Both the position numbers and the translations under genes were made by a program. Source: Enterobacter asburiae (GTDB lineage: Bacteria; Pseudomonadota; Gammaproteobacteria; Enterobacterales; Enterobacteriaceae). Taken from it: a stretch of 64,000 bases of DNA. Below are positions 10,624 through 38,172 of the stretch, piece after piece. The notes under the pieces were generated by a model. The model was not told the DNA's origin. It did no database searches and worked only from the letters and a program-made list of their open reading frames with translations. How positions within the stretch are numbered: the stretch's first letter is position 1; every line of letters begins with the position of its first letter. Location of the stretch: contig JAAQVN010000001.1 in assembly GCA_011754535.1 (NCBI GenBank), positions 4,526,001 to 4,590,000 of the forward strand, written 5' to 3'.

Positions 10624-10643
10624 ATGGCACTACGCCATTTTTT
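10624..10643 (+). terminator. Terminator of gor
   Basis: The stem ATGGC/GCCAT around ACTAC is followed by six T. Its right half lies inside the 3' end of the convergent aadA-like gene. Confidence 0.6.
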
Positions 10644-11412
10644 CCTGTATCGCTTTTTTGACATCACGGACAAATGCCGCAACCTGCGGCATTTTTTCTG
10701 CCCAGTCCACGGTGACCAACCCGAGATACTCTGCACGCGCCTCCTCCAGCAGTTTCGCATGAGCTTCGGGCAATTGCGGCCGCAGCCAGGCTGCGGCCTC
10801 GTCTTTAGCCGCGATCTTACCCGTCTCAACGCTATACCCGATACGCGCCAGCGTCAGGAGGATATGTCTTTCATCGCCCTTAAGATCGTCAGCCCTGCTC
10901 CACAGCGCCAGAGTCTGACGAAAGGTCTCCAGCAGATCGTTTTCTGGCACAGCCTCGAACAACTCGCAGGCTGCTTTTCCCCGCAGAGGGAGACTGTTCT
11001 GACGCGCTTTGGTCAGTAAAATCGCCAGATCGGGGTCGGGCTGCGCCGGTTCGTATTTCCCGTTTGTAATATCATCCCGTAGCCATTCTCCAAACTGCAG
11101 TTCCCGCACGGGCGGAAAGTGCCATGGCACAATCTGCGACCAGACTACGACCGTTACTTCCAGCGCCCGGTAAATCTCCGATGTGCCGGGCCAGGCCGAA
11201 ATCGCCAGCAGCTTCTGCATCAAGGTATGGCGTTGTTCATCCCGCAGCGGCGAACGTACTGTGACCAGCAGGTCGATATCGCTCAGCGGCTTCAGGCCGC
11301 CGTCCATCGCCGAACCGTATAAGTGAATTGCCATCAGCTCGCTTCCGAGAACGCTTTCGATGAGCGCGCAGGCGCTCTGTAGCTGTTTTTGTGCGCAGGG
11401 GGGCTCGTTCAT
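10630..11412 (-). CDS. AadA-like aminoglycoside (3'')-nucleotidyltransferase
   Basis: 260-aa protein with the nucleotidyltransferase signature HLYGSAMDGGLKPLSDIDLLV (residues about 30-50: GS, then D-x-D), followed by ALEVTVV with the third acidic residue and a helical C-terminal domain. It resembles the chromosomal AadA of Salmonella over its whole length (for example FPPxRELQFGEWLRDDI and the DLKGDERHILLTLARIGY block). That family adenylylates streptomycin and spectinomycin; activity here is inferred only. Its ATG overlaps the stop of the upstream hybrid kinase (ATGA), so the two are translationally coupled. No integron or transposon sequence is nearby. It may therefore serve a physiological role tied to the kinase. 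Confidence 0.8.
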   Translation of the reverse strand: MNEPPCAQKQLQSACALIESVLGSELMAIHLYGSAMDGGLKPLSDIDLLVTVRSPLRDEQRHTLMQKLLAISAWPGTSEIYRALEVTVVVWSQIVPWHFPPVRELQFGEWLRDDITNGKYEPAQPDPDLAILLTKARQNSLPLRGKAACELFEAVPENDLLETFRQTLALWSRADDLKGDERHILLTLARIGYSVETGKIAAKDEAAAWLRPQLPEAHAKLLEEARAEYLGLVTVDWAEKMPQVAAFVRDVKKAIQEKMA

Positions 11413-14400
11413 CCTACCTCTTCGTCTGACGATAGCTGCTGATTAAACCGGGTTATCTCTTCCAGCACGCGGTTGACCAGAAGGTCAATCTCTTGCCAGG
11501 GTCGATCGTCGTTACAGGCCGTTTCCAGCTGTTCACAGGCTTGCTGCAAAGATGTCATGCTCATCATCCTTGCTCCACCATTGATACGGTGCGCCATACG
11601 GCCAACCTTATCGCGATTTTTCTGTGCGAGCCACTGCGTCAACTGGCTGGCATCCTGTCTGTTCACCTCCACCATTTCGGCCTGCAGCGCCCGCGTGGCA
11701 TCGCTCTCCAGGGCAGGCTTCGCGCTGCTGCCGGCAAAATAACGATCCAGCAGCGTCTGGAGTTTTTCCGCCGTCAGCGGTTTCTCCAGATATTCATTCA
11801 TACCAGCATCGATACAGCGCGCTGCCGTTTCTGCGCCGCTCATCGCCGTCAGGCCGAATATCGGGACAGGCGGATGACCATAAAGCTGTTCGGTATGACG
11901 GATCTGCTGCGCCAGCTCATAGCCGTCCATCTCCGGCATCGTGCAGTCGGTAATAATCACATCGTAGCGGCCAGGATTTTGCTGCCACATCGACAGCGCC
12001 TCCGCCCCCTGTGTCGCCAGCGAAACCCGGTGCCCCCAGGACTCCAGCCGCTGCCGCAGCGCACGGCGTGCTGGCGGATAGTCGTCGACCCCAAGAATAT
12101 GCAGGCTGCGCATATGTTCGACAGGCGGAGGGGTTAACACTTTGCTGGCGGCAGGCACCGCGTTGAAGTGAAGGCTCACCACGCAGCCCTCATGCGGCTC
12201 ACTGTCGATACGTACCTCCGCACCGGCGGCATGGGCCATATACAGGCAGGCCGGTAAACTGAACCCGGTGTCGGTCCACTCTGATTTCAGCGTCACGTGG
12301 TGCGCTCGTCTGGCAATGTCCTCAATCAGGTGCTCGTCAATGCCCTCGCCCCGATCGCACACTTCGATGACCAGCGGGATCGTCGTGGCATTCGGCTCTT
12401 TGCTGCCCTCATACACTTCAACGTCAATATCCTGACCATTCGAATGCTTGATGGCGTTACGCAGCAGGCTGGATAGGATGCGAATAATCAGCAGCGGATC
12501 GGTGGTAAAACGCTCGACAGAGAGCTCGATCAGCACGTTCAGGGTGATCCCTTTCGCTTCAGCCTGCTGCCGGTAAAGCGCCACGGTACTGTGGATTAAC
12601 TGGGGCAGATGCGTGCTGCGCATCGTTCCGTTCAGCTGCGGGTTATCTGCACGGAAGACGTCAAACATGTCGCCGATCAGCGAAAGCAGGTTGAGGGAGG
12701 ATTCCCAAATCAGATTCAGGTTTTCATTATGCTCATGCCGCGCATCAAGCGCCTGAAGCTCCATCTCCAGCAGGCCGGTGATGACGCTGAGTGGGGTGCG
12801 CACTTCATGCCCCATGCTCTGCATAAAGGCGTTTTTGCTGCCTATTGCCTGCTCAAGATTACTCTTCGTCTCAGAGAGCTGAGCAATCAGCAGCTCTTTT
12901 TCAGTGACATCCAGCCAGCCGCCAATCAGACCACCAATTTCACCCTGACTGTCGTGCCACGGCACAACCCAGCCCTGCAGGTAGCGCGTCTGGTTGTTTA
13001 TCGTAAAACTGTCAGCCCAGTTCTGCGGTTGCCCATCCTGTAACGCCTGCTGGTATTTTGCCTCCAGGTTCGCCAGCACCGCCGGTTCTACCATGTCGAT
13101 CGCGGTTACTGGCTGCCCCTGGAAGGCATCGCCCGGCTGGCCGATGGTATCTGCCCAGGCCTGGTTGTAGCGCAGCAGATGGCCGTTACGATCGCGAACG
13201 TAGAGCGCCACGGGCGAGGCGTCGATCAGCGCCTGGGTAAAACGTAACTGTTCGGTAAGCTGGCGCTGCAAGACATTGCCACGGCGCAGCGCGGCGCGCA
13301 GATACTGTATCCATAACCAACACCCTGTCACCACCAGCAGAAGCAGCACGCCCCAGACCAGAGAATTGAGTAATGAACTTTGCGCCCAGGTTTCGCTATT
13401 GTCGATGGCCGCTTGTCGCCAGTCACCCGCCAGCTGCATCAGTGCCTGTGGCTGCATATCTGCCAGCGCTTTATTGAGAATATTAACTGGCTGGCTGGTC
13501 TCGGTTTGCGCGGCAATGACGACATCGATGAGGGGGACAGGCACCGTGACGGCCAGATGAAAACGGGTGGGATGATGGCGCGTCACCAGGTAGTTGGCGA
13601 TAAACTGCGGCGCGATCACACCGCGCACTTCGCCTTTTTTCAACCGCGCCAGCGCGTCGTCCATGTGGGTCAACGACACCAGTTTGATTGTAGGATACCA
13701 GGTTTCCAGCCAGGGGCGCAGCGGATCGTCGGCCATAATCGCCAGCTTTTCACCCTTCAGCTGGGCAAAATCGTCCGGCCGTTTGATCGTCTGATCCATC
13801 ACCACCACGACCGGCGTGGTGAGCAACGGCGAGGTCATCGCCATGGCCGCGGACGTTTTTTGCGACACGTCAGCCACCTGCCTGAGCACCAGCGCATCCG
13901 GGTTATTCTGCTTTAACGCGTTGAGTTCGTCGTCGCTACCGGCGGTCAATATCGTGAAGTGAATATCATACTGCTCGCTAAATTGGTTGAGCAGATCAAC
14001 CACCAGACCCGCTGGCGTGCCATCCTCCAGAAACGAGAGCGGGCGCTGGCGACTATCCAGAATCACCTGGATCTGACTATGCTCACGCAGCCAGTTCTCC
14101 TCCTCCCGATCCAGCGCCAGCGGATTGGCGGTAATGACGAAGCTCCGGTTAAGCCCCCAACTGGTGGTAATACGCAAACGGCTGGCTAAGGGGATATGTT
14201 TGAACACCGCGTCGATGGCTTCCACCAGTTGCGGCAGCTGGCGATCTACACCAAAACTCATGTTCAGATTGGGCAGCGCCGGGCTGTAGCGCCAGCGTAT
14301 CCCCTGAGCCTGATGATACTGGGTAAGGTACTCCGCACTGGCCCGGTTAATCCACAGGGCATCTATCTGCTTAAACGCCAGCGCGCTGACGGCTGAAGGA

Positions 14401-14966
14401 TACCAGGACTGGAAACGGAGCATACTGCCGGGATAGTGGCGACGCAGCGCCGGGCTGGCGTTGGTATCAGTCATCAAACCTAATGTCTTTGGGCTCTCTT
14501 CAGGCGCGTCATCGGCTCGCTCGCGAGTGGTCATTAAGACTGACTTATCCAGCAGCCATGGCGGCGTGGTCACCAGTTCGGCGTTTGGCCACAGCTCCGG
14601 GTTCCACATCGCCACCATCTGAATTTCATGGCGACGCAGCGCCTGGAAAGCATCACGACTCTGGTTGTAATAGTGGAGCTTGACGTTGACCTTCAGGCTA
14701 TCTTCCAGCAGCGCTAGATAATCGGCCGCAATCCCGCTGAAAAGTCCGTGCCCCATGCCTTCGCTGAGAGGAGGATGCGGCGGCCCCCAGACGCCCACGT
14801 GAAGCGTCTGATTGTGTTTCAGCCATTGCTGCACGTCACCACTAAACTGGACATGCGGCGCATTGACCTGCACGCGGCGTTGCAGGGTCAGTTCCTGGGC
14901 CTGAATCTGCCCGATACTGCAAAGCAGCATAAAAAGGCTAATTAACCGGGCAGTGATAAAACGCAT
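11409..14966 (-). CDS. EvgS/BvgS-like hybrid sensor histidine kinase with HPt domain (HK1)
   Basis: 1185-aa inner-membrane unorthodox kinase. In order: signal peptide (1-23); two periplasmic solute-binding-like (Venus flytrap) domains (about 50-270 and 285-520); membrane segment (about 533-555); PAS (about 575-690); dimerisation domain with SMGHEVRTPL (His720); ATPase domain with N-box LLRNAIKHS (about 835) and G1 box DRGEG (871); receiver domain with DD at 961-962, Asp1007 in ITDCTMPEMDG and EKPL near 1061; HPt with RMAHRINGGA (His1126). The G2 ATP-lid region reads DTGFSLPACLY instead of GTGLGL, so autokinase activity may be weak. It heads a two-gene unit with the overlapping aadA-like gene, and is divergent from the 124-aa secretion-domain gene. 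The ligand is unknown. Confidence 0.92.
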   Translation of the reverse strand: MRFITARLISLFMLLCSIGQIQAQELTLQRRVQVNAPHVQFSGDVQQWLKHNQTLHVGVWGPPHPPLSEGMGHGLFSGIAADYLALLEDSLKVNVKLHYYNQSRDAFQALRRHEIQMVAMWNPELWPNAELVTTPPWLLDKSVLMTTRERADDAPEESPKTLGLMTDTNASPALRRHYPGSMLRFQSWYPSAVSALAFKQIDALWINRASAEYLTQYHQAQGIRWRYSPALPNLNMSFGVDRQLPQLVEAIDAVFKHIPLASRLRITTSWGLNRSFVITANPLALDREEENWLREHSQIQVILDSRQRPLSFLEDGTPAGLVVDLLNQFSEQYDIHFTILTAGSDDELNALKQNNPDALVLRQVADVSQKTSAAMAMTSPLLTTPVVVVMDQTIKRPDDFAQLKGEKLAIMADDPLRPWLETWYPTIKLVSLTHMDDALARLKKGEVRGVIAPQFIANYLVTRHHPTRFHLAVTVPVPLIDVVIAAQTETSQPVNILNKALADMQPQALMQLAGDWRQAAIDNSETWAQSSLLNSLVWGVLLLLVVTGCWLWIQYLRAALRRGNVLQRQLTEQLRFTQALIDASPVALYVRDRNGHLLRYNQAWADTIGQPGDAFQGQPVTAIDMVEPAVLANLEAKYQQALQDGQPQNWADSFTINNQTRYLQGWVVPWHDSQGEIGGLIGGWLDVTEKELLIAQLSETKSNLEQAIGSKNAFMQSMGHEVRTPLSVITGLLEMELQALDARHEHNENLNLIWESSLNLLSLIGDMFDVFRADNPQLNGTMRSTHLPQLIHSTVALYRQQAEAKGITLNVLIELSVERFTTDPLLIIRILSSLLRNAIKHSNGQDIDVEVYEGSKEPNATTIPLVIEVCDRGEGIDEHLIEDIARRAHHVTLKSEWTDTGFSLPACLYMAHAAGAEVRIDSEPHEGCVVSLHFNAVPAASKVLTPPPVEHMRSLHILGVDDYPPARRALRQRLESWGHRVSLATQGAEALSMWQQNPGRYDVIITDCTMPEMDGYELAQQIRHTEQLYGHPPVPIFGLTAMSGAETAARCIDAGMNEYLEKPLTAEKLQTLLDRYFAGSSAKPALESDATRALQAEMVEVNRQDASQLTQWLAQKNRDKVGRMAHRINGGARMMSMTSLQQACEQLETACNDDRPWQEIDLLVNRVLEEITRFNQQLSSDEEVG

Positions 14967-15151
14967 CGTTGGAGTCGTTCCCTGAAAAGTGAGGGCTGGA
15001 AATCAGCAGGCTGGCACAGCGTTAATTTTAGCAACCGCGCTTCGTTCTGCATTGTCTGGATAACCGCCATAATTTGCAGGAATTTTAGCAATAGGTGGGC
15101 AAATCGGGATTAAGGTCGGTCTTGTTTTTAAAAACTATCGTCAGCGGATTT

Positions 15152-15169
15152 TTATAAGACCGGACTTAT
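15152..15169 (+). promoter_or_regulatory. Candidate operator: TTATAAGAC half-site within an imperfect palindrome
   Basis: TTATAAGAC (15152-15160) lies in ATAAGACCGGACTTAT (15154-15169), with inverted arms ATAAG/CTTAT and a CCGG core. It is about 61 bases before the start of the 124-aa protein, almost the same distance as the treF copy. A related AAGGTCGGTCTTG lies at 15112-15124. Function inferred from recurrence across the island. Confidence 0.5.
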
Positions 15170-15212
15170 TGTCCCCTCCCCTGCTGGAAGGTAAAAACGC
15201 AGCAGATTTGCT

Positions 15213-15587
15213 ATGCGTAAACAGGTTCCACAAAAAATGAATAACACGTTAACTGCCCACGGCGAAAACACTGCCGATGCCCATAAAGAGATGGCGACTG
15301 ACGATCAATTTCCTGCACTGGTCGAAATCGCGCTCGGCGATATTTTCATTCAGGGGGAAGAGCGTCTTTTTATCGACGACGTTAATCAGCAGCTACTGAT
15401 AAAAGGCCCTCCCGGGCAGCGGGTCAATCTGTCCGATCTGCTTCCTGCAGAATCAGAGCCAGGAGAATGGATGAAAGCCAGAGGCTCCGTTACCGTGAAC
15501 GGCGTGCAATATGAGGTTTATCACCATTCGGGTATTGAGACGGAGCTACTGGTCCAGACAGGACTAGACGTTGCGCCTCAGACGTAA
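15213..15587 (+). CDS. Stand-alone copy of the adhesin C-terminal (type I secretion) domain
   Basis: 124-aa protein with no signal peptide or membrane segment. Residues about 38-124 are clearly homologous to the last about 88 residues of both giant adhesins of this island: all three share an IxLxDIL-type strand, RLF/DLF/NLF, QxxxKG-like QLLIKG/QMMVQG, the exact string VNLSDLLP, PG-W, a GV-Y-VY strand and ELLVQ-G. The first about 37 residues are charged and unlike the adhesins. ATG at 15237 (AGG 12 bases upstream) is an alternative start with little difference. Its 3' end overlaps the convergent glycosyltransferase-like gene by 10 bp. It could be a small secreted substrate, a decoy or sensor of secretion, or the remnant of a third adhesin. 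It sits between the two kinases. Confidence 0.85.
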   Translation: MRKQVPQKMNNTLTAHGENTADAHKEMATDDQFPALVEIALGDIFIQGEERLFIDDVNQQLLIKGPPGQRVNLSDLLPAESEPGEWMKARGSVTVNGVQYEVYHHSGIETELLVQTGLDVAPQT

Positions 15588-16852
15588 TCAGGTTGCGTAA
15601 TAACCTCAACCTGCACCTCGCCCGCGCGAAAACCGTCAGCAAGGAAGAATGGGATAGGCAATCGCCACTGCCCATCACGCACCAACGCCGTATAGCGATA
15701 GCTCTCCCCCTCAATCCGTAATACGACAGCCTGCTTTTCACCGCTGGCTTTCTCGCTCGGCCCCGCCAGCACGGTAAACCCGGCGTTGCTGCCCACGTGG
15801 AAGTGCTCAGTCTGCCAGCGAACAGGCGGATGTGCAGGCCACGGTTGAGCATGGTGAAAGGCGAAGATCTCATCATGATTCAAAATGCTCTGCCGGACCG
15901 TAGGCCAGATCGCCACTTTGAGGAAATACTGGTCGGTGAAACGGGCGCTCCCCCGGTAGCTCGCCACAAACTGACGCATCATTCCTTCCACGTCTGGGAT
16001 CGCGCCGCCACAGCCGCCCCACATCCCTGCCAGCAACAGCTCGGTATGGGTGAAATAGTCGCGCATATGGTGGAAATAAAACGGCGAGCGCAGCCAGTCT
16101 TCCACGCAAACCTGTTCCCGTTCAGAGAGCAGAGAGTCAGCGTCACGCACTAAAAAACGCTCGACCTGCGGGTCATCCATCACCAGAAAACGCCACAGCG
16201 TGGGATAGATGCGCTTTTCCTGGCTCATATCCACCAGCGCGGCACCCGCCTGCGCCAGCCGCTGCCAGACGTGCTGGGGCACGGAGTCATCCAGATACAC
16301 GCGACAGCGCCAGCCGGGAAACAGCTCTGCGGCGGCCTCAATGTTTTTAATTAAGGTTTCGCAGTAGCGCGGCAGATCGCCATACAGACTGAACGCGATA
16401 ATGTTTTTTTCCGGGCAATCCGCCTGAAAAGGTGGCGGTGGTGTCTGGGGCAGCGGCCAGGCGGTTCCCTGACGAAAACGCTGGTCAGAGAGGGTCAATG
16501 ACTCCAGACCATACGCGCGCATTTCATCCGTTTTGCCCATATGGCCGCACAGTTCCGCCAGGCCATCGAGCCAGGTTTCAGACGCTTCATGACGACGGGG
16601 CGACTGATAAATCTTGCGGTAGACTTTGTACGCCTTGTCATGTTTTCCCTCACGCATCAGGCTAAGGGCGTAATCGCTCTGTACCGACATATTATGCGGC
16701 AGAACGGCCAGCGCTTTTTCGCAGCAGCGAGAGGCCGTCGCATAATCCGTCACGGCCATTGCATGACGGTACTGCTCCGCCAGGGCAGCAAATGTCTGAC
16801 GCATTGCTTCTTGTTTTGCAGCAGATGAATGAGGTTGAAGGGATCGACGCAT
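15578..16852 (-). CDS. TPR domain plus glycosyltransferase-like domain protein
   Basis: 424-aa soluble protein. Residues about 15-125 form three helical TPR-like units (for example YATASRCCEKALAVLPHN and KAYKVYRKIYQSPRRHE). From residue 150 it changes to an alpha/beta domain starting IIAFSLYGDLPRYCETLIKNIE, with FLVRDADS (DAD at 237-239) as a DxD-type metal/nucleotide-sugar site, then HHMRDYFTH, LLAGMWGG and FTDQYFL. This resembles a group of bacterial GT-A-like glycosyltransferases of unproven substrate. The start ATG at 16852 has a poor ribosome site; an ATG 16 codons in is possible. Its place beside the adhesin genes suggests, without proof, that it modifies the adhesins or a surface glycan. 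A palindrome at 16916 lies 64 bp upstream. Confidence 0.7.
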   Translation of the reverse strand: MRRSLQPHSSAAKQEAMRQTFAALAEQYRHAMAVTDYATASRCCEKALAVLPHNMSVQSDYALSLMREGKHDKAYKVYRKIYQSPRRHEASETWLDGLAELCGHMGKTDEMRAYGLESLTLSDQRFRQGTAWPLPQTPPPPFQADCPEKNIIAFSLYGDLPRYCETLIKNIEAAAELFPGWRCRVYLDDSVPQHVWQRLAQAGAALVDMSQEKRIYPTLWRFLVMDDPQVERFLVRDADSLLSEREQVCVEDWLRSPFYFHHMRDYFTHTELLLAGMWGGCGGAIPDVEGMMRQFVASYRGSARFTDQYFLKVAIWPTVRQSILNHDEIFAFHHAQPWPAHPPVRWQTEHFHVGSNAGFTVLAGPSEKASGEKQAVVLRIEGESYRYTALVRDGQWRLPIPFFLADGFRAGEVQVEVITQPDYV

Positions 16853-16915: not shown

Positions 16916-16929
16916 CAAGACCCGTCTTG
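16916..16929. promoter_or_regulatory. Perfect palindrome CAAGAC-CC-GTCTTG, candidate operator
   Basis: Six-base arms with a 2-base spacer. It is 64 bp upstream of the GT-like gene and about 240 bp upstream of HK2. Same architecture as the sites at 25980 and 37317. Confidence 0.5.
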
Positions 16930-17091
16930 ATGTTCCCGGCAGTCAATGATGGCGCAGGATTTAAGCAGCAAAAAGCAGGCGAAAATGCACGCTTATATTA
17001 GTATTGAGAGGATAGCGTAGAAATAATAACGTTCCTGACCAGACATTGTGCTTTTCGTTATTCACAATCGCCAGAATAATAACCAAGCCTT

Positions 17092-17100
17092 GTCTTATAA
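17092..17100 (-). promoter_or_regulatory. Shared 9-mer GTCTTATAA, candidate half-site
   Basis: Reverse complement of TTATAAGAC. It lies 69 bp before the HK2 start and is one of four exact copies in the window, all intergenic. Confidence 0.4.
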
Positions 17101-17168: not shown

Positions 17169-20102
17169 ATGCGTCACTACCTTCGTCGTTTTTTGCTTCT
17201 GGTTTTATTTTTATTCGTGATGCCTCCGGCACACAGCGAAGAATATAAGATTCTGATGCGCACCCCCATTGAGGGCATGAGTCGCTTGCCGCTCACCGAA
17301 GAGCAGGCAACGCTGCTAAAGCATATGCAAAACTTGACGGTGGGTATCACACGTTATGACGTGCCTCCTTTCGGGATGCGCAACATACGCCATGAATATG
17401 AGGGGCTGAGCGCCGACTATCTCGGCCTGGTGTCCTGGCAGCTTAATCTGCCGGTGCAGGTTAAAATGTACGACTCGCAGGAAGAGCTGTGGCAGGCGCT
17501 GGCGCGCGGTGATATCGATCTTATCCCCTCTGTCTCCGCCTTTGACGCCAACGACGCATTTATCTTCTCAACGCCCTATGCCAGCGATAAACCGGTGCTG
17601 GGGGCGAACGACCGGGATACCCAGCCTCTCGCGGACGATCTTGCTAACACCGACGTCGCGATGGTCCGGGACTACCTGCCTCTGGCACAGGTGAAAGCGG
17701 CCTATCCCAACGCGCGCTTTCGCCTGTTTGACAGCTATCAGGAAGCGCTGAGCGCCGTGGCGTTTGGGCATTCACGCGCCTATCTCGGTAACAGCTATTC
17801 GCTGAGCCGAAACTATTTAAACAATATTCATATCGATCGCATCTCGCGGCTGCCCAACCGTGAAGTGGGGTTCGCCCTGAGCCAGAATAACCCGCTGCTT
17901 AACCAGTTGATTAACGCGACCATCCGCGCGGTACCCGAAGAGGAAAAGCTGGATCTCTATCGCCGCTGGCAGCCCGATCGGGTCGATATTGCACAGGGAA
18001 CCAAGTCGCTGGTCTTTACCGACCAGGAGAAAGCGTGGATCGCCCGGCATCCGGTGGTGAACGTGCTCATCTACAGCCAGGATAATGCCGCCCCGGTCTC
18101 CTTTATCGATAACAAGGGGATGCTGCGCGGGGTAGTGGCGGATCTCTTCTCCGTGGTGTCATTGCGCACCGGCTTGCGCTTTAGCTTTGAGACCGGCAAT
18201 ACCACCGATGATTTGATAGCCCAGGTCAACCACGGGCAGGCTGACATGCTCGCGTCAGTGACGCCGAGCGAGGCGCGCAAGGGTCAGGTCCTCTTCACGC
18301 GGCCCTACTTACGCAGCGCGTTTGCTCTTGCCACATCATCCTCACGTAACGACATTAACACGCTGGCCGACCTGCGCGGCAAACGCCTGGCGCTGGTGAA
18401 AAACATCGGCGTGGAGCAGCTGGTGCGCGAACGTTACCCGGAGATCAAAATAGTTCACGTGGGCAATGAATCGCAGCTGCTCGCCAGCATCACCAACGGC
18501 GATGCCGACGCGGCAATAGGTATTCTGGTGATGACGGATTACCAGATCTACACCAATTTTCAGGACAAGCTGAAGGTGGTTTCGATTGTTGGCGACTCCC
18601 CCGCCTGGATCTCCTTTGGCGTTGGCCTGGCAAGCCCGGAACTGCAGAGCATTCTGGATAAAGTCCTGCTGAGTATCTCACCCATTGAGATGGAAAACCT
18701 GGCGAACCGCTGGCGACCCAACGAGCTGGTGGTGGTCGACAGCTTCTGGTATCGCTATCGCGAAGTGCTGATTGCCACGGGTGTCTTCAGCGCCGTTCTG
18801 GTGCTGTTAGCGCTGGGATGGGCGCTCTATTTACGTCGGCAGATTGTGCGTAAAGCGGCGCTGCGCAGGCAACTGAACGAGCAGCTCACCCAGCTGCGCG
18901 AGATGCTGACCGAACGTGAATCGCTGCTGGCGGAACTGAGCGAGGCGAAAGATCGCGCCGAAGACTCTAACCGGGCAAAATCGGTGTTCCTGTCAACCAT
19001 GAGCCATGAGATCCGCACCCCGATGAACGCCATTATCGGCATGCTGGACATCGTTCTGAAAAAAGGGCGCAAGGGCGAGCACGATCTTCAGGCGCTGGAA
19101 GTCGCCTACGACTCGGCAGAGGGTCTGGTGGGGTTGATTGGCGATATCCTGGATATCTCCCGTATCGAGGGAGGGCATCTCGATTTTAACCCGGAACCCG
19201 TGCAGTTCGGCAAACTCATCGACAACATGATGCGGGTGTTCCAGGGCGTGGCGATAGAAAAAAATATCCAGTTGAATAAGGTCTTCCCGGCAGAGGCGCT
19301 GTATGAGGTCTATGCCGACCCGCTGCGTATTAAGCAGGTGCTCTCCAACCTGCTCAGCAACGCCATCAAGTTTACCGACCGCGGCAGCGTGACGCTGACC
19401 TTATCGCAGCGTGAGGAGCCCGGCACCGATAACATCCAGTTTGTCATTGAGGTGCAGGACAGCGGTATCGGTATTGATGCCAGCCAGCAGGCCGCACTCT
19501 TTAAGCCATTCAGCCAGGCGGACAATCGTCGGGCGGGCACCGGCCTTGGGTTATATATCAGCCGAACCATCTGTGAAAGCATGAATGGCACGCTCACGCT
19601 CGCCAGCGAAAAGCATGTCGGTACCACCGTCAGGGCGACCTTCTCCCTGCCTAAAGTTACCCGTGCCGTTACGCCCCGTGCCCAGCCTGATGCGGAAGAT
19701 GAAAAGTTACCGGCGCTTAACGTGCTGGTGGTGGATGACAATCCCGCAAACCGCATCCTGTTGGCCAAACAGCTGGCCTGGCTGGGGCAGCACGCGCATC
19801 TGGCTTCCGGTGGCGATGAGGCCCTCAAAATCTGGGCCGATACTGCCTTTGATGTGGTTATCACCGACTGCAATATGCCGGGCATCAACGGTTATCAGCT
19901 AACGGGCATGATGCGTAACGCTGAGCGTGAGCAGGGCCGGACACCGGCATGGATTATTGGTTTTACCGCCAATGCGATGCATGAGATTAAGGAACGGTGT
20001 TTACAAGCGGGAATGAACGATTGTCTGTTTAAGCCGTGCTCTATCAGCGATCTGGCGACGGCGCTGCGTAACAGTACTTCTTGCCGGGTGGCGCTGCGCT
20101 GA
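17169..20102 (+). CDS. EvgS-like hybrid sensor histidine kinase without HPt (HK2)
   Basis: 977-aa inner-membrane hybrid kinase. In order: signal peptide (1-23); two periplasmic solute-binding-like domains (about 50-270 and 285-520); membrane segment (about 532-555); coiled coil (about 565-605) with no PAS domain; H-box STMSHEIRTPMN (His613); N-box NLLSNAIKFTD (about 727-737); G1 DSGIG (764); G2 GTGLGLYIS (790); receiver domain with DD near 856, Asp900 in ITDCNMPGINGYQ and FKP at 954-956. All catalytic boxes are canonical, but the protein ends 20 residues after the receiver, so the HPt domain of EvgS-type kinases is missing. The last codons (SCRVALR) and the stop are part of a REP element. A separate HPt is needed; HK1 has one. 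Confidence 0.92.
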   Translation: MRHYLRRFLLLVLFLFVMPPAHSEEYKILMRTPIEGMSRLPLTEEQATLLKHMQNLTVGITRYDVPPFGMRNIRHEYEGLSADYLGLVSWQLNLPVQVKMYDSQEELWQALARGDIDLIPSVSAFDANDAFIFSTPYASDKPVLGANDRDTQPLADDLANTDVAMVRDYLPLAQVKAAYPNARFRLFDSYQEALSAVAFGHSRAYLGNSYSLSRNYLNNIHIDRISRLPNREVGFALSQNNPLLNQLINATIRAVPEEEKLDLYRRWQPDRVDIAQGTKSLVFTDQEKAWIARHPVVNVLIYSQDNAAPVSFIDNKGMLRGVVADLFSVVSLRTGLRFSFETGNTTDDLIAQVNHGQADMLASVTPSEARKGQVLFTRPYLRSAFALATSSSRNDINTLADLRGKRLALVKNIGVEQLVRERYPEIKIVHVGNESQLLASITNGDADAAIGILVMTDYQIYTNFQDKLKVVSIVGDSPAWISFGVGLASPELQSILDKVLLSISPIEMENLANRWRPNELVVVDSFWYRYREVLIATGVFSAVLVLLALGWALYLRRQIVRKAALRRQLNEQLTQLREMLTERESLLAELSEAKDRAEDSNRAKSVFLSTMSHEIRTPMNAIIGMLDIVLKKGRKGEHDLQALEVAYDSAEGLVGLIGDILDISRIEGGHLDFNPEPVQFGKLIDNMMRVFQGVAIEKNIQLNKVFPAEALYEVYADPLRIKQVLSNLLSNAIKFTDRGSVTLTLSQREEPGTDNIQFVIEVQDSGIGIDASQQAALFKPFSQADNRRAGTGLGLYISRTICESMNGTLTLASEKHVGTTVRATFSLPKVTRAVTPRAQPDAEDEKLPALNVLVVDDNPANRILLAKQLAWLGQHAHLASGGDEALKIWADTAFDVVITDCNMPGINGYQLTGMMRNAEREQGRTPAWIIGFTANAMHEIKERCLQAGMNDCLFKPCSISDLATALRNSTSCRVALR

Positions 20103-20184: not shown

Positions 20185-20871
20185 TCACAGCAGTTGGTCG
20201 TGCCAGAGGAACAGCTCAGGGTCGGTCTTCACGCCCAGCTTTTTCATTGCGGATTTCTTCTGGCCGCTAACCGTTTTGCGGCTCCGGCTGAACTTCTCAG
20301 AAATTTGCAGCACCGACATACCGGAAAGGAAAAGGCGTAACACCTCCAGTTCCCGGGCAGAAAGCTGGTCCAGACGGCCAATGCCGTCAATTACATGCTG
20401 TTCATCTTCAGCGTCACCGGATGCAGATGGCTCGGAAATAAGATAAAACTCCTTCTCCATGCTTTCGGAAAGGCAGATATGCCCAGCCGCCACGCGGCGC
20501 ACGGCATCCACCACTTCCGAGGCGTCACGGCTTTTGCCGATATGCCCGCGCACGCCTGCCTTCAGCGCCATACGAACAATGGCGGTATTTTCCAGCGTCG
20601 ATGAGATCAAAATTTTCAGCCAGGGAAAATTGCTCATTAACTGCTTAATCATCGGCAATCCGTCAATGTCTTCATCCCCGAGCAAATAGTCGAGGATAAG
20701 CACATCAATCCGGTTGGTACGTAAAAAGTTAATCAGATCAATGCGGCTGGCAAAGCTGCCCTTCAGTTCGAAATCCGGCTCCTGGCTGAAAATAATTTCC
20801 AGCCCTTTGCGGACAATCGGATGATCGTCGAGTAAGGCGATATAAATTTTCTTTCCTGAATACTGATTCAT
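20185..20871 (-). CDS. RcsB-like LuxR-family response regulator (RR1)
   Basis: 228-aa two-domain response regulator. The receiver domain has the acidic pair LLDDHP (Asp15, Asp16), phosphoacceptor Asp61 in LILDYLLG, and Lys113 in HIGKSRD. The C-terminal HTH reads LSARELEVLRLFLSGMSVLQ, then SRSRKTVSGQKKSAMKKLGV, very close to RcsB's KTISSQKKSAMMKLGV. The start is ATG at 20871 (MNQYSGKK), preceded by AGAGAG; the frame extends 23 codons upstream without family sequence. It is the last gene after the TolC-like gene (50-bp gap), so it is probably co-transcribed with the secretion system and could act back on the island's operators. Partner kinases are probably HK1 and HK2. Confidence 0.88.
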   Translation of the reverse strand: MNQYSGKKIYIALLDDHPIVRKGLEIIFSQEPDFELKGSFASRIDLINFLRTNRIDVLILDYLLGDEDIDGLPMIKQLMSNFPWLKILISSTLENTAIVRMALKAGVRGHIGKSRDASEVVDAVRRVAAGHICLSESMEKEFYLISEPSASGDAEDEQHVIDGIGRLDQLSARELEVLRLFLSGMSVLQISEKFSRSRKTVSGQKKSAMKKLGVKTDPELFLWHDQLL

Positions 20872-20921
20872 CTGCACTCTCTTTCTGTGCCTGCTGTGTG
20901 GGTCATTATAAAAATGGCTGA

Positions 20922-22382
20922 TTACTGCTTTCTCAGCCACTGCAATAATGTTCCCGCACTGGCATAACTACGAAAAATAGCAGCGTAAGCGTCAAAGCGG
21001 TTGGTGGCTTCTGCAACCTGGTTACCGTAATAATCACTTTCTGCACTCAGCACATCCAGCAGGGTTCGTCTGCCAAGGTGGTACCATTGATCGAAGAAAT
21101 CATGGCGAATGCGATCGGATTCAAAGGCTAAGTCATGGTACAACTCAGCGCGTTCCAGCATGCTGCGGGCGTCCTGATCCGCCGCGCGCACGCGGTTATC
21201 CAAATCGCGTAACTGTTTTTCTATAGTTTCTCTGCTGGCGTCCGCACGACGCGCAGCAGAGAGCTCAGCGGCTCGCTGAGAACCGCCGCGGAAAATCGGC
21301 CAGCTCACGTTCACACCCGTCTCCCAGGACTGTTCACGCCCCAGTTCGTCACGCCCGGTGCTTTTGCCCACGTTCCAGGTCACTGTCGGGTAAGAGGCCG
21401 AGCGCGCGACATCCGCATCCGCCAGCGCCGACGCGGTTTCCGCCTTAGCTTGCCGAATTGTCGGATGGCTGTCGATGGCCGACAGTTGTGTCGTCAACTC
21501 TCCCGGCTTAAGGTTCCAGGCGGTCGCTGCGGGCAGAGGCACTTTTTTGTCCCCCAGCAGACGGTTAAGAGTGATTTCAATATCACGAGCCCGCGAAACC
21601 GCCGTGTCCAGAGATGATTGCGCCTGAAGCAAGCGCCCCCGAGCCTGCGTCAGCTCGCTGCGGCGCCCCTGATCGACCTTCACGATCCCGTCCAGCATGC
21701 TGACCAGCTCATTCATGCGGGCCACATACTTTTGGCTCAGGCTGATGATCTGGCGCTGCTTGCTCAGTTCGATGAGCGCGCTGCTGACCTGCCAGGCGAT
21801 ATCTTCCGCCTGGGCATCGACGTTATTTTTCGCCGCGTCATGCAGGGCTTCACGGCTTTTGATGGTGTTACTGGTGCGGCCAAAATCGAGCAGTGTGGTC
21901 GCCATATTCACGGTGACCGCCGGTCGGCTGTCGCTGTAGCGACGCTCACCACCACCAAACTGATAACTTTTGGAACGGGTGCCGACATCAATCTGCGGCC
22001 AGCGCTGGCCTTTCGCTTCGTCAACATTCGCTTCTGCCGCTTCAGTATTATAATTCGCGCCACGCACTTCGGGGCTGATACTCAGCGCGGTATTCACCGC
22101 ATCATTAAACAGGGCGCGAATTTCCCTTTCGCTGGGTGCGCGGGCCGTAATATCACGTTTCGGCGCGGCGGCCGCGTGTGTCACCGGCGCCTGCTCCACT
22201 AACGGCGCAGCGGGTGCGGGCGGTGTCGAGGCCATCACCATGCGAGATTTTACCGCAGGGTCTACAGGCGCAAAGGCTAATAAGCCGTCACTATTTGCTG
22301 CACTTTTAGCCGATGCCAGGCAAGCCGCGGCCGTTAACAGCGCCGCCAGGCGGCGCTGCATAAAAATAGAGTTACTTTTCAT
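20922..22382 (-). CDS. TolC-family outer membrane channel of the type I secretion system
   Basis: 486-aa outer-membrane factor. A signal peptide (about 1-29, ending near AKSAAN) is followed by a Pro/Ala-rich linker (about 45-80) and then two helical repeats of the outer membrane efflux family, with long heptad helices (for example NVDEAKGQRWPQIDVG and LLDVLSAESDYYGNQVAEATN). It forms the export duct that joins the ABC-HlyD complex in the inner membrane. It begins 1 bp after the HlyD-like stop, within the same operon. It corresponds to the LapE/BapB role. Confidence 0.92.
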   Translation of the reverse strand: MKSNSIFMQRRLAALLTAAACLASAKSAANSDGLLAFAPVDPAVKSRMVMASTPPAPAAPLVEQAPVTHAAAAPKRDITARAPSEREIRALFNDAVNTALSISPEVRGANYNTEAAEANVDEAKGQRWPQIDVGTRSKSYQFGGGERRYSDSRPAVTVNMATTLLDFGRTSNTIKSREALHDAAKNNVDAQAEDIAWQVSSALIELSKQRQIISLSQKYVARMNELVSMLDGIVKVDQGRRSELTQARGRLLQAQSSLDTAVSRARDIEITLNRLLGDKKVPLPAATAWNLKPGELTTQLSAIDSHPTIRQAKAETASALADADVARSASYPTVTWNVGKSTGRDELGREQSWETGVNVSWPIFRGGSQRAAELSAARRADASRETIEKQLRDLDNRVRAADQDARSMLERAELYHDLAFESDRIRHDFFDQWYHLGRRTLLDVLSAESDYYGNQVAEATNRFDAYAAIFRSYASAGTLLQWLRKQ

Positions 22383-22383
22383 A

Positions 22384-23619
22384 TTAACGCTCGCGGAACG
22401 CTTCCTTCGCTTTGAAGATAGGTTTCAACAGGTAATCGAGAATGGTTTTTTCACCGGTGCGGATTTCAACCGTGGCAATCATGCCGGGAATGATAGGCAG
22501 AGATTTACCGCCCGCATTCAGCGTGCTGCTGTCAGTTAATACCATCACCCGGTAATAGGTGTCGTCAGGGCGGCCGGCGGCAGCTTTGGCGTCATCCTTC
22601 AGCGTATCCGGGCTGACCAGAGACACGTGCCCTTTCAGGCCACCGTAGATGCCGAAATCGTATGCGGTGATTTTCACCATTGCCGGTAATCCGGCATGCA
22701 GGAAGGCGACGTCAGACGGTTTGATTTTCCCTTCAACCAGCAGCTGGTCTTCCAGCGGCACGATTTCCATAATGTGTTCACCGGGCTGGATAACGCCGCC
22801 GATGGTGGTGACACGCACGTTTTTCACGGTGCCTTTTACCAGCGCGGAGATGGTTGTCCGGCTCACCACGTCGGCACGTCCTGTCAGGCTCTCTTCGGCC
22901 TGCACCAGATCCAGCTCCTGGCGAATCAGCTCGGCGTTGGCATCCGCCTGATAGCGGTTACGACGCTCGACAATTTGCGATTGCAGGTCATTCGCCTGAC
23001 GACGCATACGCAGCAGCTCCACTTCTGAGAGCAGGCCGCGCGCGGCCAGCGGCTCGGACATGGCAATTTCGTTTTGCGCCAGGCGGTAGCTTTTCTCGAG
23101 CGAGGCCACCCCTTCTTCCAGCGCCTGTTTGCGGCTGTTGTAGGCGCGGGTTTCCAGGTCCACTTCGGAAGGGTACTGTTTCACCCGGTCGCTAAACGTC
23201 AGCGGCAGGCCGTAGGCCTCTGCACGCAGGCGGTTAACGGTCGCTTCCAGCGCCACCACTTTACGCAGCGTCTCCTGATAGCTGGACTGGGCGCGGGTCG
23301 GGTCTATTTTCAGCAGTACCTGCCCCGGCTCAACAATGTCGCCCTCACGGACGTTCAGCTCTTCGAGAATCCCGCCCTCCAGGCTCTGGATAATTTGCTC
23401 GCGGCTTTTCGAGACGATTTTCGCGTCGCCTTTGGTGATCTCTTCCACCTTGGCGAAATGCGCCCAGGTTAAAAACCCGACGAACACCACCAGAATCAGC
23501 CATAGCACCAGGCGCGACTTTGGCGTGGTCTGGGAGAATAGCGCTTCCTGGATATCGCTCATCCAGGCGGCATCACGCGCGGATAATGCCTTGCTGTTGT
23601 TACGTTTTAAGAATTTCAT
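22384..23619 (-). CDS. HlyD-family type I secretion membrane fusion protein
   Basis: 411-aa periplasmic adaptor. A cytoplasmic N-terminus is followed by one membrane segment (about 38-60), a half-lipoyl domain (EQIIQSLEGGILEELNVREGD), long alpha-helical hairpin (about 105-250) and the second lipoyl/beta-barrel part (ISALVKGTVKNVRVTTIGGVIQPGEH), with the family C-terminus PIIPGMIATVEIRTGEKTILDYLLKP. It links the ABC transporter to the TolC-like channel. Its ATG overlaps the stop of the ABC gene by 4 bp, so the two are coupled. Confidence 0.95.
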   Translation of the reverse strand: MKFLKRNNSKALSARDAAWMSDIQEALFSQTTPKSRLVLWLILVVFVGFLTWAHFAKVEEITKGDAKIVSKSREQIIQSLEGGILEELNVREGDIVEPGQVLLKIDPTRAQSSYQETLRKVVALEATVNRLRAEAYGLPLTFSDRVKQYPSEVDLETRAYNSRKQALEEGVASLEKSYRLAQNEIAMSEPLAARGLLSEVELLRMRRQANDLQSQIVERRNRYQADANAELIRQELDLVQAEESLTGRADVVSRTTISALVKGTVKNVRVTTIGGVIQPGEHIMEIVPLEDQLLVEGKIKPSDVAFLHAGLPAMVKITAYDFGIYGGLKGHVSLVSPDTLKDDAKAAAGRPDDTYYRVMVLTDSSTLNAGGKSLPIIPGMIATVEIRTGEKTILDYLLKPIFKAKEAFRER

Positions 23620-25874
23620 GCGCTGGCCTCCACGGGCTGTTTTCCTGTAGCGGCTTTTGCAGGGGTACTGTCGTTTGCGGGTGCGCCGTTAAGAGCGGCC
23701 AGCACCTGCTGTTTAGGACCATCGGCCACAATTTTGCCGTCATCAATAATGACCATGCGATCGACCAGCGCCAGAAGCGACGGGCGATGGGTAACCACCA
23801 CCAGCGTGTGTCCGGCGGTCGCGACTTTCAGGTGTTGTAAGAAAAGGGCTTCCGTCTGGGAATCCATCGCGCTGGTCGGTTCATCCAGCAGCAAGAGATT
23901 CGGTTTCGCCAGCAGCGTACGCGCCAGTGATACCAGCTGACGCTGACCGCCGGACAAACTGTTGCCCTGCTCGCCAACAGGCATGTGGATACCGCGCGGG
24001 TGACGCGCCGCAATCTGATCCAGCCCCGTCAGACGCAGCACGTGCAGGAATTCATCAGAGGAGGCGTTCTGACGGCCAATCATAATGTTTTCACGCAGGG
24101 TGCCGTAAAAGAGGCGCGCTTCCTGGCCGACAAAGCCCACATTATTACGCCAGTCGGAGGGCTCAATCTGGTTCACATCCAGACCGCTGCTGAAGAGCTG
24201 CCCTTTCACCGGGGTGTAAAGGCGCGCGATGATGCGCAGCAGGGTCGATTTACCGCTGCCAATCTTGCCGACAATCGCCACGCGCTCGCCCGGCTTGATC
24301 GTCAGGTTGACGCCCTTGAGGATCTCCGGGTTTGGCTGCATCGGCGGCGCCGGATAGGAGAAGGTCACGCCTTTCAGCTCAATATCACCATTCAGCTCAG
24401 GCTGTTTGATGTAATCAATGTCGCTGCTGCGATCGGTCGGGTGTTCCATCAGTCTGTTCAGCGAGCCCAGCGCGGCTTTCGCTTGCTGATAACGCACGGC
24501 TAAACCAATCACCTGGCTTAATGGCGCGGTCACGCGACCCGCCAGCATTACGGTACCGATCAGCGCACCCTGGGTCAGGTTACCGGCATCGATCAGGTAT
24601 ACACCGGTGACAATCAGCATCACCGTCTGCAGCTGCTGCAGGAAACTCACCGAGTTCATCGCCAGCGTCGAATAATGTTTTGACGCCGCCGCGCTGGAAG
24701 ATTGCATGGCGCTGAATTTCTGCCAGCGGCTCTGCATCCAGGATTCACCGCCGACCGATTTCAGGGTTTCCATGCCTTCAATGGATTCAATCAGTACGCC
24801 CTGCTTTAACGAGGCTTCCTGCAGGCTGGCTTTCATTACCTTCGCCAGCGGCCACTGGATAAGCAGGCTGACGATCAGGATCATCGGCAACATCAGCATC
24901 GGAATAAAGGCCAGCGTACCGCCGATGGCAAAAATAATGCCGATAAACAGCAGCACAAAAGGTAAGTCGGCAATGGCCGCCAGGGTGGCTGATGAGACGA
25001 AGTCACGCACGGATTCAAACTCGCGCAGCTGGTTGGCAAACGAGCCGGAAGAGGCCGGTTTATGCTCCATTTTGACCGCCAGCGACTGACGGAACAGAAC
25101 GCTGCCGACAATCAAATCCGCTTTCTTGCCGGCGGTGTCGAGCAGATGCGCCCGCACGGTACGGGTAATGGCCTCAAAGACCATAGCCACCAGTACGCCA
25201 GCCGCCAGCGACCAGAGCGTCGTAAAGGCCTGGTTAGGGATAACGCGGTCATACACGTTCATGGTGAAGAATACCGTTGCCAGCGCGAGCACGTTGACCA
25301 GCACCGACGCCAGCGCCGCGCTGCGGTAGTAGCTTCGATAGCGCCACAGGGTACTGAACAGCCAGTGACCTTTTGGTTGCGGCGGCGCGATATCGCTGAC
25401 CCGGCTGTCAATGCGCGCAGTTGGTTTCGCCGCAATGGCATAACCGACATACAGCTCGCTGAGCGCCTCATGGTTCAGCTCAACCGGCTCGTCGCCCACT
25501 TCCGGCATGATCAGGGAGTAGAACAGATCCCATTTATCGTCGGCATTTTTACGACGCTCGCGCGCAAGCAGCACCATGCCGCCCGCACCTTTGCGCAGCA
25601 GAATCATGGGGAAAACCTGCTCGGGCAGTTCCGCACTATTACGCTTGATGAGCCCCCCGGTGATACCGGCATTTTTAAGCGCATCAAGCGCTAAAGAGGG
25701 TGTGAGAGTTTGTTCAACAGGCAGACCAGCCAGCAAGACATCGTCGCTCTTACCCAGACCATAATGATCGGACAGCCAGGCAATGCTTCTGAGCAGAGTG
25801 TCGTCATTGAGTCGGGTATCACGGGCGATAGTGTGCAGCTGTTCCTCCTGGGTATTGGCCATTGAGGATTCCAT
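23616..25874 (-). CDS. Type I secretion ABC permease/ATPase, LapB-like with inactive C39-like domain
   Basis: 752-aa inner-membrane exporter. Residues about 20-150 form a C39-peptidase-like domain lacking the catalytic Cys (LLRSIAWLSDHYGLGKSDD), as in exporters of substrates without a cleaved leader. Next come a six-helix ABC membrane domain (about 175-460) and the nucleotide-binding domain with Walker A GKIGSGKST, signature NSLSGGQRQ, Walker B LLLLDEP and H-loop VTHRPS. It most resembles exporters of giant adhesins (LapB, LssB class). It opens the ABC-HlyD-TolC-RR1 unit; a candidate operator lies about 110 bp upstream. An ATG four codons in (25862) is an equally good start. Confidence 0.94.
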   Translation of the reverse strand: MESSMANTQEEQLHTIARDTRLNDDTLLRSIAWLSDHYGLGKSDDVLLAGLPVEQTLTPSLALDALKNAGITGGLIKRNSAELPEQVFPMILLRKGAGGMVLLARERRKNADDKWDLFYSLIMPEVGDEPVELNHEALSELYVGYAIAAKPTARIDSRVSDIAPPQPKGHWLFSTLWRYRSYYRSAALASVLVNVLALATVFFTMNVYDRVIPNQAFTTLWSLAAGVLVAMVFEAITRTVRAHLLDTAGKKADLIVGSVLFRQSLAVKMEHKPASSGSFANQLREFESVRDFVSSATLAAIADLPFVLLFIGIIFAIGGTLAFIPMLMLPMILIVSLLIQWPLAKVMKASLQEASLKQGVLIESIEGMETLKSVGGESWMQSRWQKFSAMQSSSAAASKHYSTLAMNSVSFLQQLQTVMLIVTGVYLIDAGNLTQGALIGTVMLAGRVTAPLSQVIGLAVRYQQAKAALGSLNRLMEHPTDRSSDIDYIKQPELNGDIELKGVTFSYPAPPMQPNPEILKGVNLTIKPGERVAIVGKIGSGKSTLLRIIARLYTPVKGQLFSSGLDVNQIEPSDWRNNVGFVGQEARLFYGTLRENIMIGRQNASSDEFLHVLRLTGLDQIAARHPRGIHMPVGEQGNSLSGGQRQLVSLARTLLAKPNLLLLDEPTSAMDSQTEALFLQHLKVATAGHTLVVVTHRPSLLALVDRMVIIDDGKIVADGPKQQVLAALNGAPANDSTPAKAATGKQPVEASA

Positions 25875-25979: not shown

Positions 25980-25993
25980 TGAGACCTGTCTCA
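25980..25993. promoter_or_regulatory. Perfect palindrome TGAGAC-CT-GTCTCA, candidate operator of the secretion operon
   Basis: Six-base arms with a 2-base spacer, about 106 bp before the ABC gene start. A GGTCTTG half-site lies at 25967-25973. Variant of the AAGAC-NN-GTCTT pattern of the island. Confidence 0.45.
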
Positions 25994-26089: not shown

Positions 26090-26995
26090 TTATTTCTGCG
26101 CAGGAGCAGTCACGTTCTGATCGCCGCTTACGCGTACCACAACGCGGCGGTTAGGCGACAGACAGGAGATCAACGCGCTCTTGTTCGAGGCGTCACAGTC
26201 ATTGACTACAGGCTCATTGCTGCCCACGCTGGTCGCCGTCATCAGGCGAGCCGGAAGACCGTTTTCAGCCAGCATGGTGCGGACAGTCTGCGCGCGCTTC
26301 AGGCCAAGCGCATAGTTGCTACGATCGCTGCCGATGGCGTCCGTGTGGCCGATCACCTGGATCTGTTTCAGTTCAACGTTTTCACGTTTGATCGTCGCCA
26401 CCAGATCTTTTACTGCCTGGCGACCCTGAGCGGAAACGCCTTTCTCATTTCCCTTACCAAAGCGGAACATCACATCGCCCGAGAGGGTGTAATCTTTGTA
26501 CTGTGGCGCAAGGTTCTTACAGGCCTCTACGCTTGAGGCACGGGACAGCACGTGTGTCTGCTCACGCAGACCAGCGAGATCCTTTTCCGCCTGCTCGCGC
26601 GTACGGGCTTCCGGCACCGCATTCATGGTTGAGCTGACGCGCACGAAATAGGTCTGGCCGCCGCTCATCTCGACGTTGTAGCCCTGCTCTTTGCCGCGAT
26701 ACTGCGGTGCATCATTCTGGTACGCGCCCAGATTATGCTTGCCCGGCGCCAGACAGAAAACGGTATAGCCGCCCGGCAGCAGTGCGTCGTGGAATTCGTT
26801 ATCGACATAAATATGCGCCGCGCCACCTGCGGTGTTGCTGGCATCACGGTAGTAAACCACCTGCGTCTGCGTCTGGCCGACGGGAGCGACAGGCTGATAG
26901 GTCTTACCAAAATTCTCCGCCGCCAGCGCCGGGTGGATAACAAATGCGGAGGTAGTAAACAGCGCCGCGAATAAAGAGGTCTTGAAAAAAGTCAT
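26090..26995 (-). CDS. OmpA-domain peptidoglycan-binding protein of the adhesin operon
   Basis: 301-aa exported protein. A signal peptide (about 1-25, cleavage near HPALAAEN) leads to a PEGA/DUF-like beta domain (about 40-125: YVDNEFHDALLPGGYTVFCLAPGKH), a short linker helix, and a C-terminal OmpA-like domain (about 170-295) with IQVIGHTDAIGSDRSNYALG and the RRVVVRV end. Such domains bind peptidoglycan in the periplasm. Its position directly after the adhesins and before the export genes suggests a role in anchoring or stabilising the secretion or adhesin complex. Its Shine-Dalgarno GGAGG directly abuts a GC-rich hairpin. Confidence 0.88.
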   Translation of the reverse strand: MTFFKTSLFAALFTTSAFVIHPALAAENFGKTYQPVAPVGQTQTQVVYYRDASNTAGGAAHIYVDNEFHDALLPGGYTVFCLAPGKHNLGAYQNDAPQYRGKEQGYNVEMSGGQTYFVRVSSTMNAVPEARTREQAEKDLAGLREQTHVLSRASSVEACKNLAPQYKDYTLSGDVMFRFGKGNEKGVSAQGRQAVKDLVATIKRENVELKQIQVIGHTDAIGSDRSNYALGLKRAQTVRTMLAENGLPARLMTATSVGSNEPVVNDCDASNKSALISCLSPNRRVVVRVSGDQNVTAPAQK

Positions 26996-32427: not shown

Positions 32428-32475
32428 ACAATTTTCCAAATGAATTCTGTTTATGTTTTGGTCTAAAACGTTCTG

Positions 32476-32497
32476 GAGGCTCCGGTGCAGGAGCCTC
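32476..32497 (-). terminator. 8-bp hairpin between the two adhesin genes, possible attenuator
   Basis: GAGGCTCC and GGAGCCTC pair perfectly around GGTGCA. On the minus strand it lies 17 bp after the AdhA stop and is followed by CAGAACGTTTTAG, a weak T tract. Partial termination could lower AdhB relative to AdhA. Confidence 0.5.
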
Positions 32498-32513
32498 ACT
32501 TTCCTGGCATCAA

Positions 32514-37231: not shown

Positions 37232-37260
37232 ATAAGACCTGTCGCAAACCGGTCTTATAA
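37232..37260. promoter_or_regulatory. Candidate operator: ATAAGACC and GGTCTTATAA inverted over 11 bp
   Basis: Perfect 8-base arms (37232-37239 and 37251-37258) with an 11-base spacer; the right arm is an exact GTCTTATAA. It sits between divergent AdhA and RR2 and so could control both. The spacing is about one helical turn longer than in the compact sites. Confidence 0.55.
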
Positions 37261-37316
37261 GTCATTTAAGGGAAAGGTTCGGTAGAGATGGCGTGAAGAA
37301 AATAATGGCAAAGATA

Positions 37317-37328
37317 AAGACAAGTCTT
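37317..37328. promoter_or_regulatory. Perfect palindrome AAGAC-AA-GTCTT, candidate operator
   Basis: Compact form of the island's motif, 64 bp before the RR2 start codon. Confidence 0.5.
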
Positions 37329-38142: not shown

Positions 38143-38172
38143 TTATAAGACGCCCGGAAAAACCTGTCTTTA
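38143..38172 (+). promoter_or_regulatory. TTATAAGAC and inverted GTCTTTA upstream of treF
   Basis: An exact TTATAAGAC (38143-38151) is followed after 14 bp by GTCTTTA (38166-38172), a spaced inverted pair like that at 37232. It lies 58 bp before the treF ATG, suggesting treF may share control with the adhesin island. Confidence 0.45.

Follow-up and report, generated by a model that had tools for sequence, protein, structure and literature searches.

The short gene at positions 15237..15587 of the window, the 64,000-nucleotide stretch of Enterobacter asburiae DNA analysed here, is a real gene under selection and a part of the adhesin locus in which it lies, and what is new in it is the stand-alone form of a known domain, the C-terminal tail of the two giant adhesins of the locus. 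From its homology and its genomic setting, we give a probability of roughly 50% to its product being a dedicated, co-regulated mini-paralogue that would use the shared tail to engage the local type I secretion system, most probably as a small substrate. The data suggest that it is a small accessory of the machinery that exports the adhesins and not a broken leftover. The features of the locus, in window positions, are as follows:

15237..15587, + strand: short gene, probable true coding sequence (116 aa, MNNTL...)
15321..15584, + strand: domain homologous to the adhesin tails by alignment (residues 37-124 of the 124-aa frame)
11409..14966, − strand: HK1, hybrid sensor kinase, EvgS-like only in that EvgS is its top-scoring model, far under the cut-off of that model (286.4 of 1995 bits)
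15578..16852, − strand: TPR protein (TPR models all below curated cut-offs)
17169..20102, + strand: HK2, hybrid sensor kinase, EvgS-like in the same sense (419.6 of 1995 bits)
20185..20940, − strand: LuxR-type response regulator (Pfam Response_reg and GerE above cut-off)
20922..25874, − strand: type I secretion genes as a set
20922-22382, − strand: TolC-type gene (TIGR01844 171.2 bits, below the cut-off of 225.15; Pfam OEP 136.8 bits, above cut-off)
22384-23619, − strand: HlyD-type adaptor (TIGR01843 333.7 bits, above cut-off)
23616-25874, − strand: LssB-type ABC protein (TIGR03375 850.9 bits, above cut-off)
26090..26995, − strand: OmpA-like protein gene, adjoining Adh1
27040..32499, − strand: adhesin 1 (Adh1), with Big_13/Big_6 repeats; tail at about 27040-27378
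32514..37115, − strand: adhesin 2 (Adh2), with Big_13/Big_6 repeats; tail at about 32514-32822

The first-pass annotation had located the gene 11-17 kb from the adhesins and between two sensor kinases. The distances are about 11.5 and 17 kb, and the gene does lie between the kinases, with the TPR gene also intervening before the second of them. The TPR gene is convergent with the short gene, and their ends overlap by 10 bp in this genome.

A search of the complete 4.96-Mb genome with the short protein returned the two adhesin tails as its only non-self matches at E <= 0.001 (43% over residues 12-120 for Adh1, E 1.5e-20; 40% over residues 38-122 for Adh2, E 4.2e-16). Together with the alignment of the C-termini, these values confirm the kinship with the ends of both giant adhesins that had been claimed from the letters of the sequence. 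The string VNLSDLLP was found in all three proteins as described; both the short protein (ELLVQTG) and Adh1 (ELLVQNG) match the ELLVQ-G strand exactly, whereas Adh2 reads EILVQMG. The absence of a repeat region was likewise borne out: the protein has 116-124 aa and no Pfam match, and Adh1 and Adh2 carry 13 and 9 Big_13 stretches, respectively. Thus, the short protein lacks the long Ig-like repeat array that characterizes giant adhesins of the Bap/SiiE type. RTX glycine- and aspartate-rich nonapeptide repeats were absent from its sequence, with no Pfam match either, and no Pfam or NCBIfam model reached its cut-off on the short protein or covered the adhesin tails above cut-off. The domain is homologous over about 85 residues to the C-terminal domain of enterobacterial Ig-repeat adhesins, with VNLSDLLP, G-W, GV-Y and LVQ-G in common; in the adhesins of the family it resides in frames of at least 608 aa, whereas here it forms a repeat-less 116-aa protein with a tree group of its own.

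By analogy with SiiE and RTX proteins, the adhesin tail would be a type I secretion recognition domain, and the label of export domain given to the tails is to be taken in that sense. In the excerpts of the SiiE study consulted, the secretion signal lies within the last 60 aa (PMC6272769), and in those of a second source RTX proteins have C-terminal signals of about 60 residues that are read by the secretion system (PMC3034196). A 116-aa protein bearing this domain, with neither repeats nor a recognised retention domain, would dock on the local ABC transporter and would most likely be exported as a small substrate, a status to which homology and locus point. Unlike a giant adhesin, which might lodge in the channel, the short protein is unable to do so and would therefore be a traffic partner of adhesin export, for instance by filling or clearing idle transporters or by leaving a small tip-like protein outside. 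A more specific version, in which the free-standing recognition domain would report or set the occupancy of transporters that a giant adhesin could block, is put forward tentatively, as a one-in-several possibility. A related proposal is that of an extracellular cap or tip partner which, after its own export, would bind the adhesin tails. In its favour, the C-terminus of SiiE is secreted first according to the same excerpts (PMC6272769), so that the adhesin C-terminus would presumably lie far from the cell, where a homologous domain could pair with it. Such pairing would depend on a putative self-association of the tail domain, and we regard this role as quite improbable.

Comparison of the short protein, Adh1 and Adh2 from six genomes (18 sequences, numbered according to the 124-aa frame) revealed 21 residues invariant in all of them, 13 of which are located from residue 84 onwards. 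They include N72, L73, L76, L77, P78, G84, W86 and G91, as well as Y100, L113, V114, Q115 and G117. Another 11 residues are invariant in the short proteins and unlike both tails, and eight of these are found at positions 88-109 (K88, R90, S92, T94, Q99, H105, G107 and E109). On the other side, there are 21 positions at which both tails share a single fixed residue that is not fixed in the short proteins, and the mean pairwise identity was 0.714 among the short proteins as compared with 0.918 among Adh1 tails and 0.962 among Adh2 tails. The short protein has thus kept the shared core while changing faster and maintaining its own conserved strip, as judged from these alignments. The strip, at about residues 88-109, suggests that the short protein has a specialised partner in addition to the recognition role common to the tails, and the faster divergence and the tail-fixed positions not kept mean that recognition itself need not be retained.

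These observations bear on the main rival to a small exported substrate, which is docking without export: a cytosolic regulator that would bind the ABC protein at the tail-recognition site and so limit or time the export of the adhesins. It would fit the possession of the same domain as the tails and of an operator-like element in common with the adhesin genes, the faster divergence with its own invariant residues, and the lack of a repeat region to keep the short protein unfolded. Against export as a small substrate, a domain of this size might fail to leave the cell if it folds in the cytosol: HasA, in the excerpted source, cannot be transported once folded (PMC3034196). However, with respect to docking, many of the tail-specific positions are not kept, and for this reason binding to the ABC protein may itself have been lost. 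We consider this regulator possible but doubtful, with perhaps one chance in a few.

Regarding the extent of the gene, the 124-aa open reading frame proposed at 15213-15587 is present on the + strand, but the ATG at 15213 did not hold as its start. The true start is probably at 15237, which gives 116 aa, because a conserved leader spans the ATG at 15213 and none of the five other genomes with the gene has this codon in frame: G317 and G324 lack it, and in G312, G310 and G308 it reads out of frame to a stop within 6-8 codons. Apart from the window, an in-frame copy is limited to the database proteins P0004, P0005, P0007 and P0014. The leader was defined by the upstream alignment of seven genomes:

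15190..15236, + strand: conserved leader GGTAAAAA...GATTTGCTAT...AAACAGGTT

Its element GATTTGCTAT is retained in five of the seven genomes in that alignment. The leader would act as a promoter −10 and ribosome-binding-site-like region.

The locus was matched in seven of 61 Enterobacter genomes. Six of these (G000, G308, G310, G312, G317 and G324) have both adhesins and a short frame at the same site, with 101-130 codons between stops and no stop within the match, so that stand-alone homologues next to kinases, which were to be sought in other genomes, do occur, in the same position in the six. The TPR gene is found in exactly the seven genomes of the genus that have the locus. The other six locus genomes share the gene order of the window between kinase 1 and adhesin 2, except that in G314 the short gene is missing and a third adhesin is inserted. 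This genome keeps the adhesins, the transporter, the regulator, the TPR gene and both kinases in the absence of the short gene. Still present in the gap are a portion of the leader, an operator-like site (two mismatches) and a 26-bp stretch in which 22 positions agree with the 3′ end of the G324 gene, a score reached by one of 2000 shuffles; we read this as loss of the short gene by deletion. That G314 lives without the gene counts against our main explanation. Beyond the genus, matches were found in 26 of 295 genomes of the family sample (E <= 0.001), 13 of 394 of the order sample (E <= 1e-6) and, with P0061 as query, 11 of 369 of the class sample (E <= 1e-6); no short frame other than that of the window was seen in these samples, and the smallest other frames had 608, 757 and 488 aa, respectively. 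Among 72,556 plasmid records a single one matched, inside an Ig-domain protein, and the region 14967-16852 was unmatched at the DNA level in E. coli genomes.

Estimation of dN/dS by the NG86 method among the six short genes gave values of 0.11-0.27 for the whole gene in all 15 pairs and of 0.06-0.24 for the domain in 14 of them (one undefined); several of the dS values, being above 1, are rough. The short gene is under purifying selection. Constraint is weaker or unclear in the N-terminal part, where 9-29 codons gave 0.15-0.90 in 12 of the 15 pairs and three were undefined. A tree of 44 rows, none dropped, was built from the six short proteins, 14 tails of adhesins 1 and 2, the tail of the third adhesin of G314, 11 tails of other genomes and 12 database proteins, and rooted at the midpoint only. 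The six short proteins fell into one clade (100/100), which also took in eight database relatives and whose stem measures 0.7 changes per column; the Adh1 tails (97/95) and the Adh2 tails (100/99) lie apart from it. From this topology we infer an old paralogue and not a fresh copy of the local adhesins. Four proteins, one each from Rahnella, Burkholderia, Paraburkholderia and a thrips symbiont (P0035, P0038, P0051 and P0058), were placed outside the Enterobacter short clade; that of Rahnella (P0051, 104 aa) clusters with adhesin tails of other genera.

These results allowed us to evaluate the proposal that the gene is a functionless remnant of a deleted third adhesin, which had been linked to homologues being always pseudogenised or to a full-length adhesin at this site in most genomes. 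The frame is open in six of the seven genomes with the locus, and none of the seven has a full adhesin at the site, both of which favour the first-pass reading. In favour of a remnant, the domain is that of an adhesin tail, G314 shows that gain of an adhesin (a 1068-aa third one) and loss of the short gene can both take place, and among the 23 database relatives a few appear damaged, namely P0007, which lacks an internal piece, P0023, with a changed beginning, and P0024, with a changed end. On the contrary, neither the relaxed selection nor the broken frames of a pseudogene were observed, given the dN/dS of 0.11-0.27 and the single clade with a long stem, and the leader and the operator-like sites are conserved. 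A remnant is thus very improbable, and we rejected it on the grounds of selection, tree and synteny.

An origin by internal deletion of Adh1 was also considered and discarded. The mean score of the N-termini of the short proteins against that of Adh1 was higher than in any of 300 column shuffles, but in a control that extended the comparison to the N-termini encoded by a further 28 genes of the window, the TPR protein (z 6.7) exceeded Adh1 (z 4.1), so the resemblance is not evidence of descent. The G308 short protein was omitted from both tests, its N-terminus being short.

Analysis of the regions upstream of the genes supported the earlier claim of a shared operator, in the form of a palindrome resembling AAGACCNGTCTT before the short gene and other genes of the locus:

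15112-15123 and 15156-15167: two operator-like palindromes before the short gene, AAGGTCGGTCTT (two mismatches) and AAGACCGGACTT (one mismatch)
16917..17096: operator-like sites between the TPR and HK2 genes, AAGACCCGTCTT at 16917 (perfect) and one at 17085 (two mismatches)
25981..25992: operator-like site upstream of the ABC operon, GAGACCTGTCTC (two mismatches)
37234..37328: operator-like sites upstream of Adh2, at 37234 and 37245 (two mismatches each) and 37317 (one mismatch)

With up to two mismatches, 16 places were found in the window, eight in these four promoter regions and eight elsewhere. Across the 4.96-Mb genome no site but that at 16917 matches perfectly, and 28 places have at most one mismatch, four of them within a 23-kb stretch that begins at the short gene and ends shortly beyond Adh2. 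The local clustering is partly circular, because the consensus was derived from the window's own sites. Moreover, a reversed control pattern was commoner than the motif genome-wide (58+48 vs 23+12), and a looser palindrome pattern was not clearly above chance in the window, since 9 of 100 shuffles had as many. Conservation across genomes, with operator-like sites recurring at matching places in the six other locus genomes, is better support for the palindromes than clustering. By these sites the short gene seems to be co-regulated with the adhesins, and the LuxR-type response regulator encoded at 20185..20940 would be a candidate for their binding. An extra operator-like site, with one mismatch, is located at 38159-38170, past the adhesins and before a gene at 38201.

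The proximity to the kinase genes raised the question of a traffic reporter, whose cytosolic level, set by its export through free channels, would be read by a kinase or the response regulator. A precedent in logic is FlgM, the secreted regulator of flagella; the likeness is limited to the idea that export of a small substrate could report on a channel, and the secretion system is a different one. The gene adjoins kinase genes, in the same way in six genomes, and operator-like sites occur in its promoter, but nothing beyond gene position and these sites connects the two, and in G314 both kinases and the response regulator persist although the short gene is gone. Furthermore, type I secretion bypasses the periplasm, where the solute-binding domains of the kinases are predicted to lie, so that these sensing domains would not meet a substrate exported in one step. 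This weakens the version in which the short protein is a kinase ligand, which is poorly supported, and we hold the traffic reporter to be improbable as a whole.

The predicted-protein database contained 23 relatives of 88-187 aa, one of them (P0022) extended at the N-terminus. Alignment A1 comprised P0001 and 18 of the 23, and alignment A2 comprised P0001, 15 of the 23 and 26 adhesin tails. Several Enterobacter deposits (P0006, P0009, P0013, P0019, P0020 and P0031) bear the name "Biofilm associated protein A"; they belong to the same small family, with 96-116 aa, whereas the name is that of the giant BapA. Our results indicate that these small Enterobacter proteins are a distinct family and not fragments. 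A profile search listed 64 proteins, including some from Burkholderia, Paraburkholderia, Rahnella and a thrips symbiont. A profile search among proteins of solved structure gave matches only at E 0.05 or worse, and Foldseek returned none at E <= 0.001 for the models of either the short protein or the Adh1 tail. The Adh1 tail model was good (pLDDT 85.6); that of the short protein, built from the 124-aa frame, was poor (mean pLDDT 64.8, mostly <50 at residues 1-49). The VIA-align rows were too weak for use, and the structure comparison, which took in the RTX-type C-terminal fold (CyaA block V and PML lipase), pointed neither clearly to a shared fold nor clearly away from one.

No description of a stand-alone tail-domain protein appeared among the titles and abstract openings listed from an open-access library. 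SiiE and BapA of Salmonella are, like the adhesins of the locus, Ig-repeat adhesins with a type I system, a likeness taken from their descriptions; the excerpts consulted on them mention no free-standing copy of the signal domain. The wider question is how cells meter giant type I adhesins, since the export of one may occupy whole channels. A natural stand-alone tail domain that is under selection and apparently co-regulated offers a small handle on transporter recognition and on whether export has a built-in regulator.

Several minor features of the locus were observed. No library model matched the N-terminal part of Adh2 that precedes the repeats, which presumably resembles a BapA-type prefix; Adh1 does not have this part. 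The C-terminal part of the TPR protein gave no family match and contains a DAD motif that we take to resemble those of glycosyltransferases; its frame ends after 419 of 424 residues in G308 and G312. In the window, an AadA-like nucleotidyltransferase gene (10630-11412) overlaps the HK1 gene by 4 bp, and it had no match in the stretches examined of G310 (L005), G324 (L056) and G314 (L059). Finally, G314 carries at L058:12171-15377 a third adhesin-like gene, encoding 1068 aa with the same tail domain, which is inverted between the OmpA-like and ABC genes and is preceded by an operator-like site at 15415 (two mismatches).
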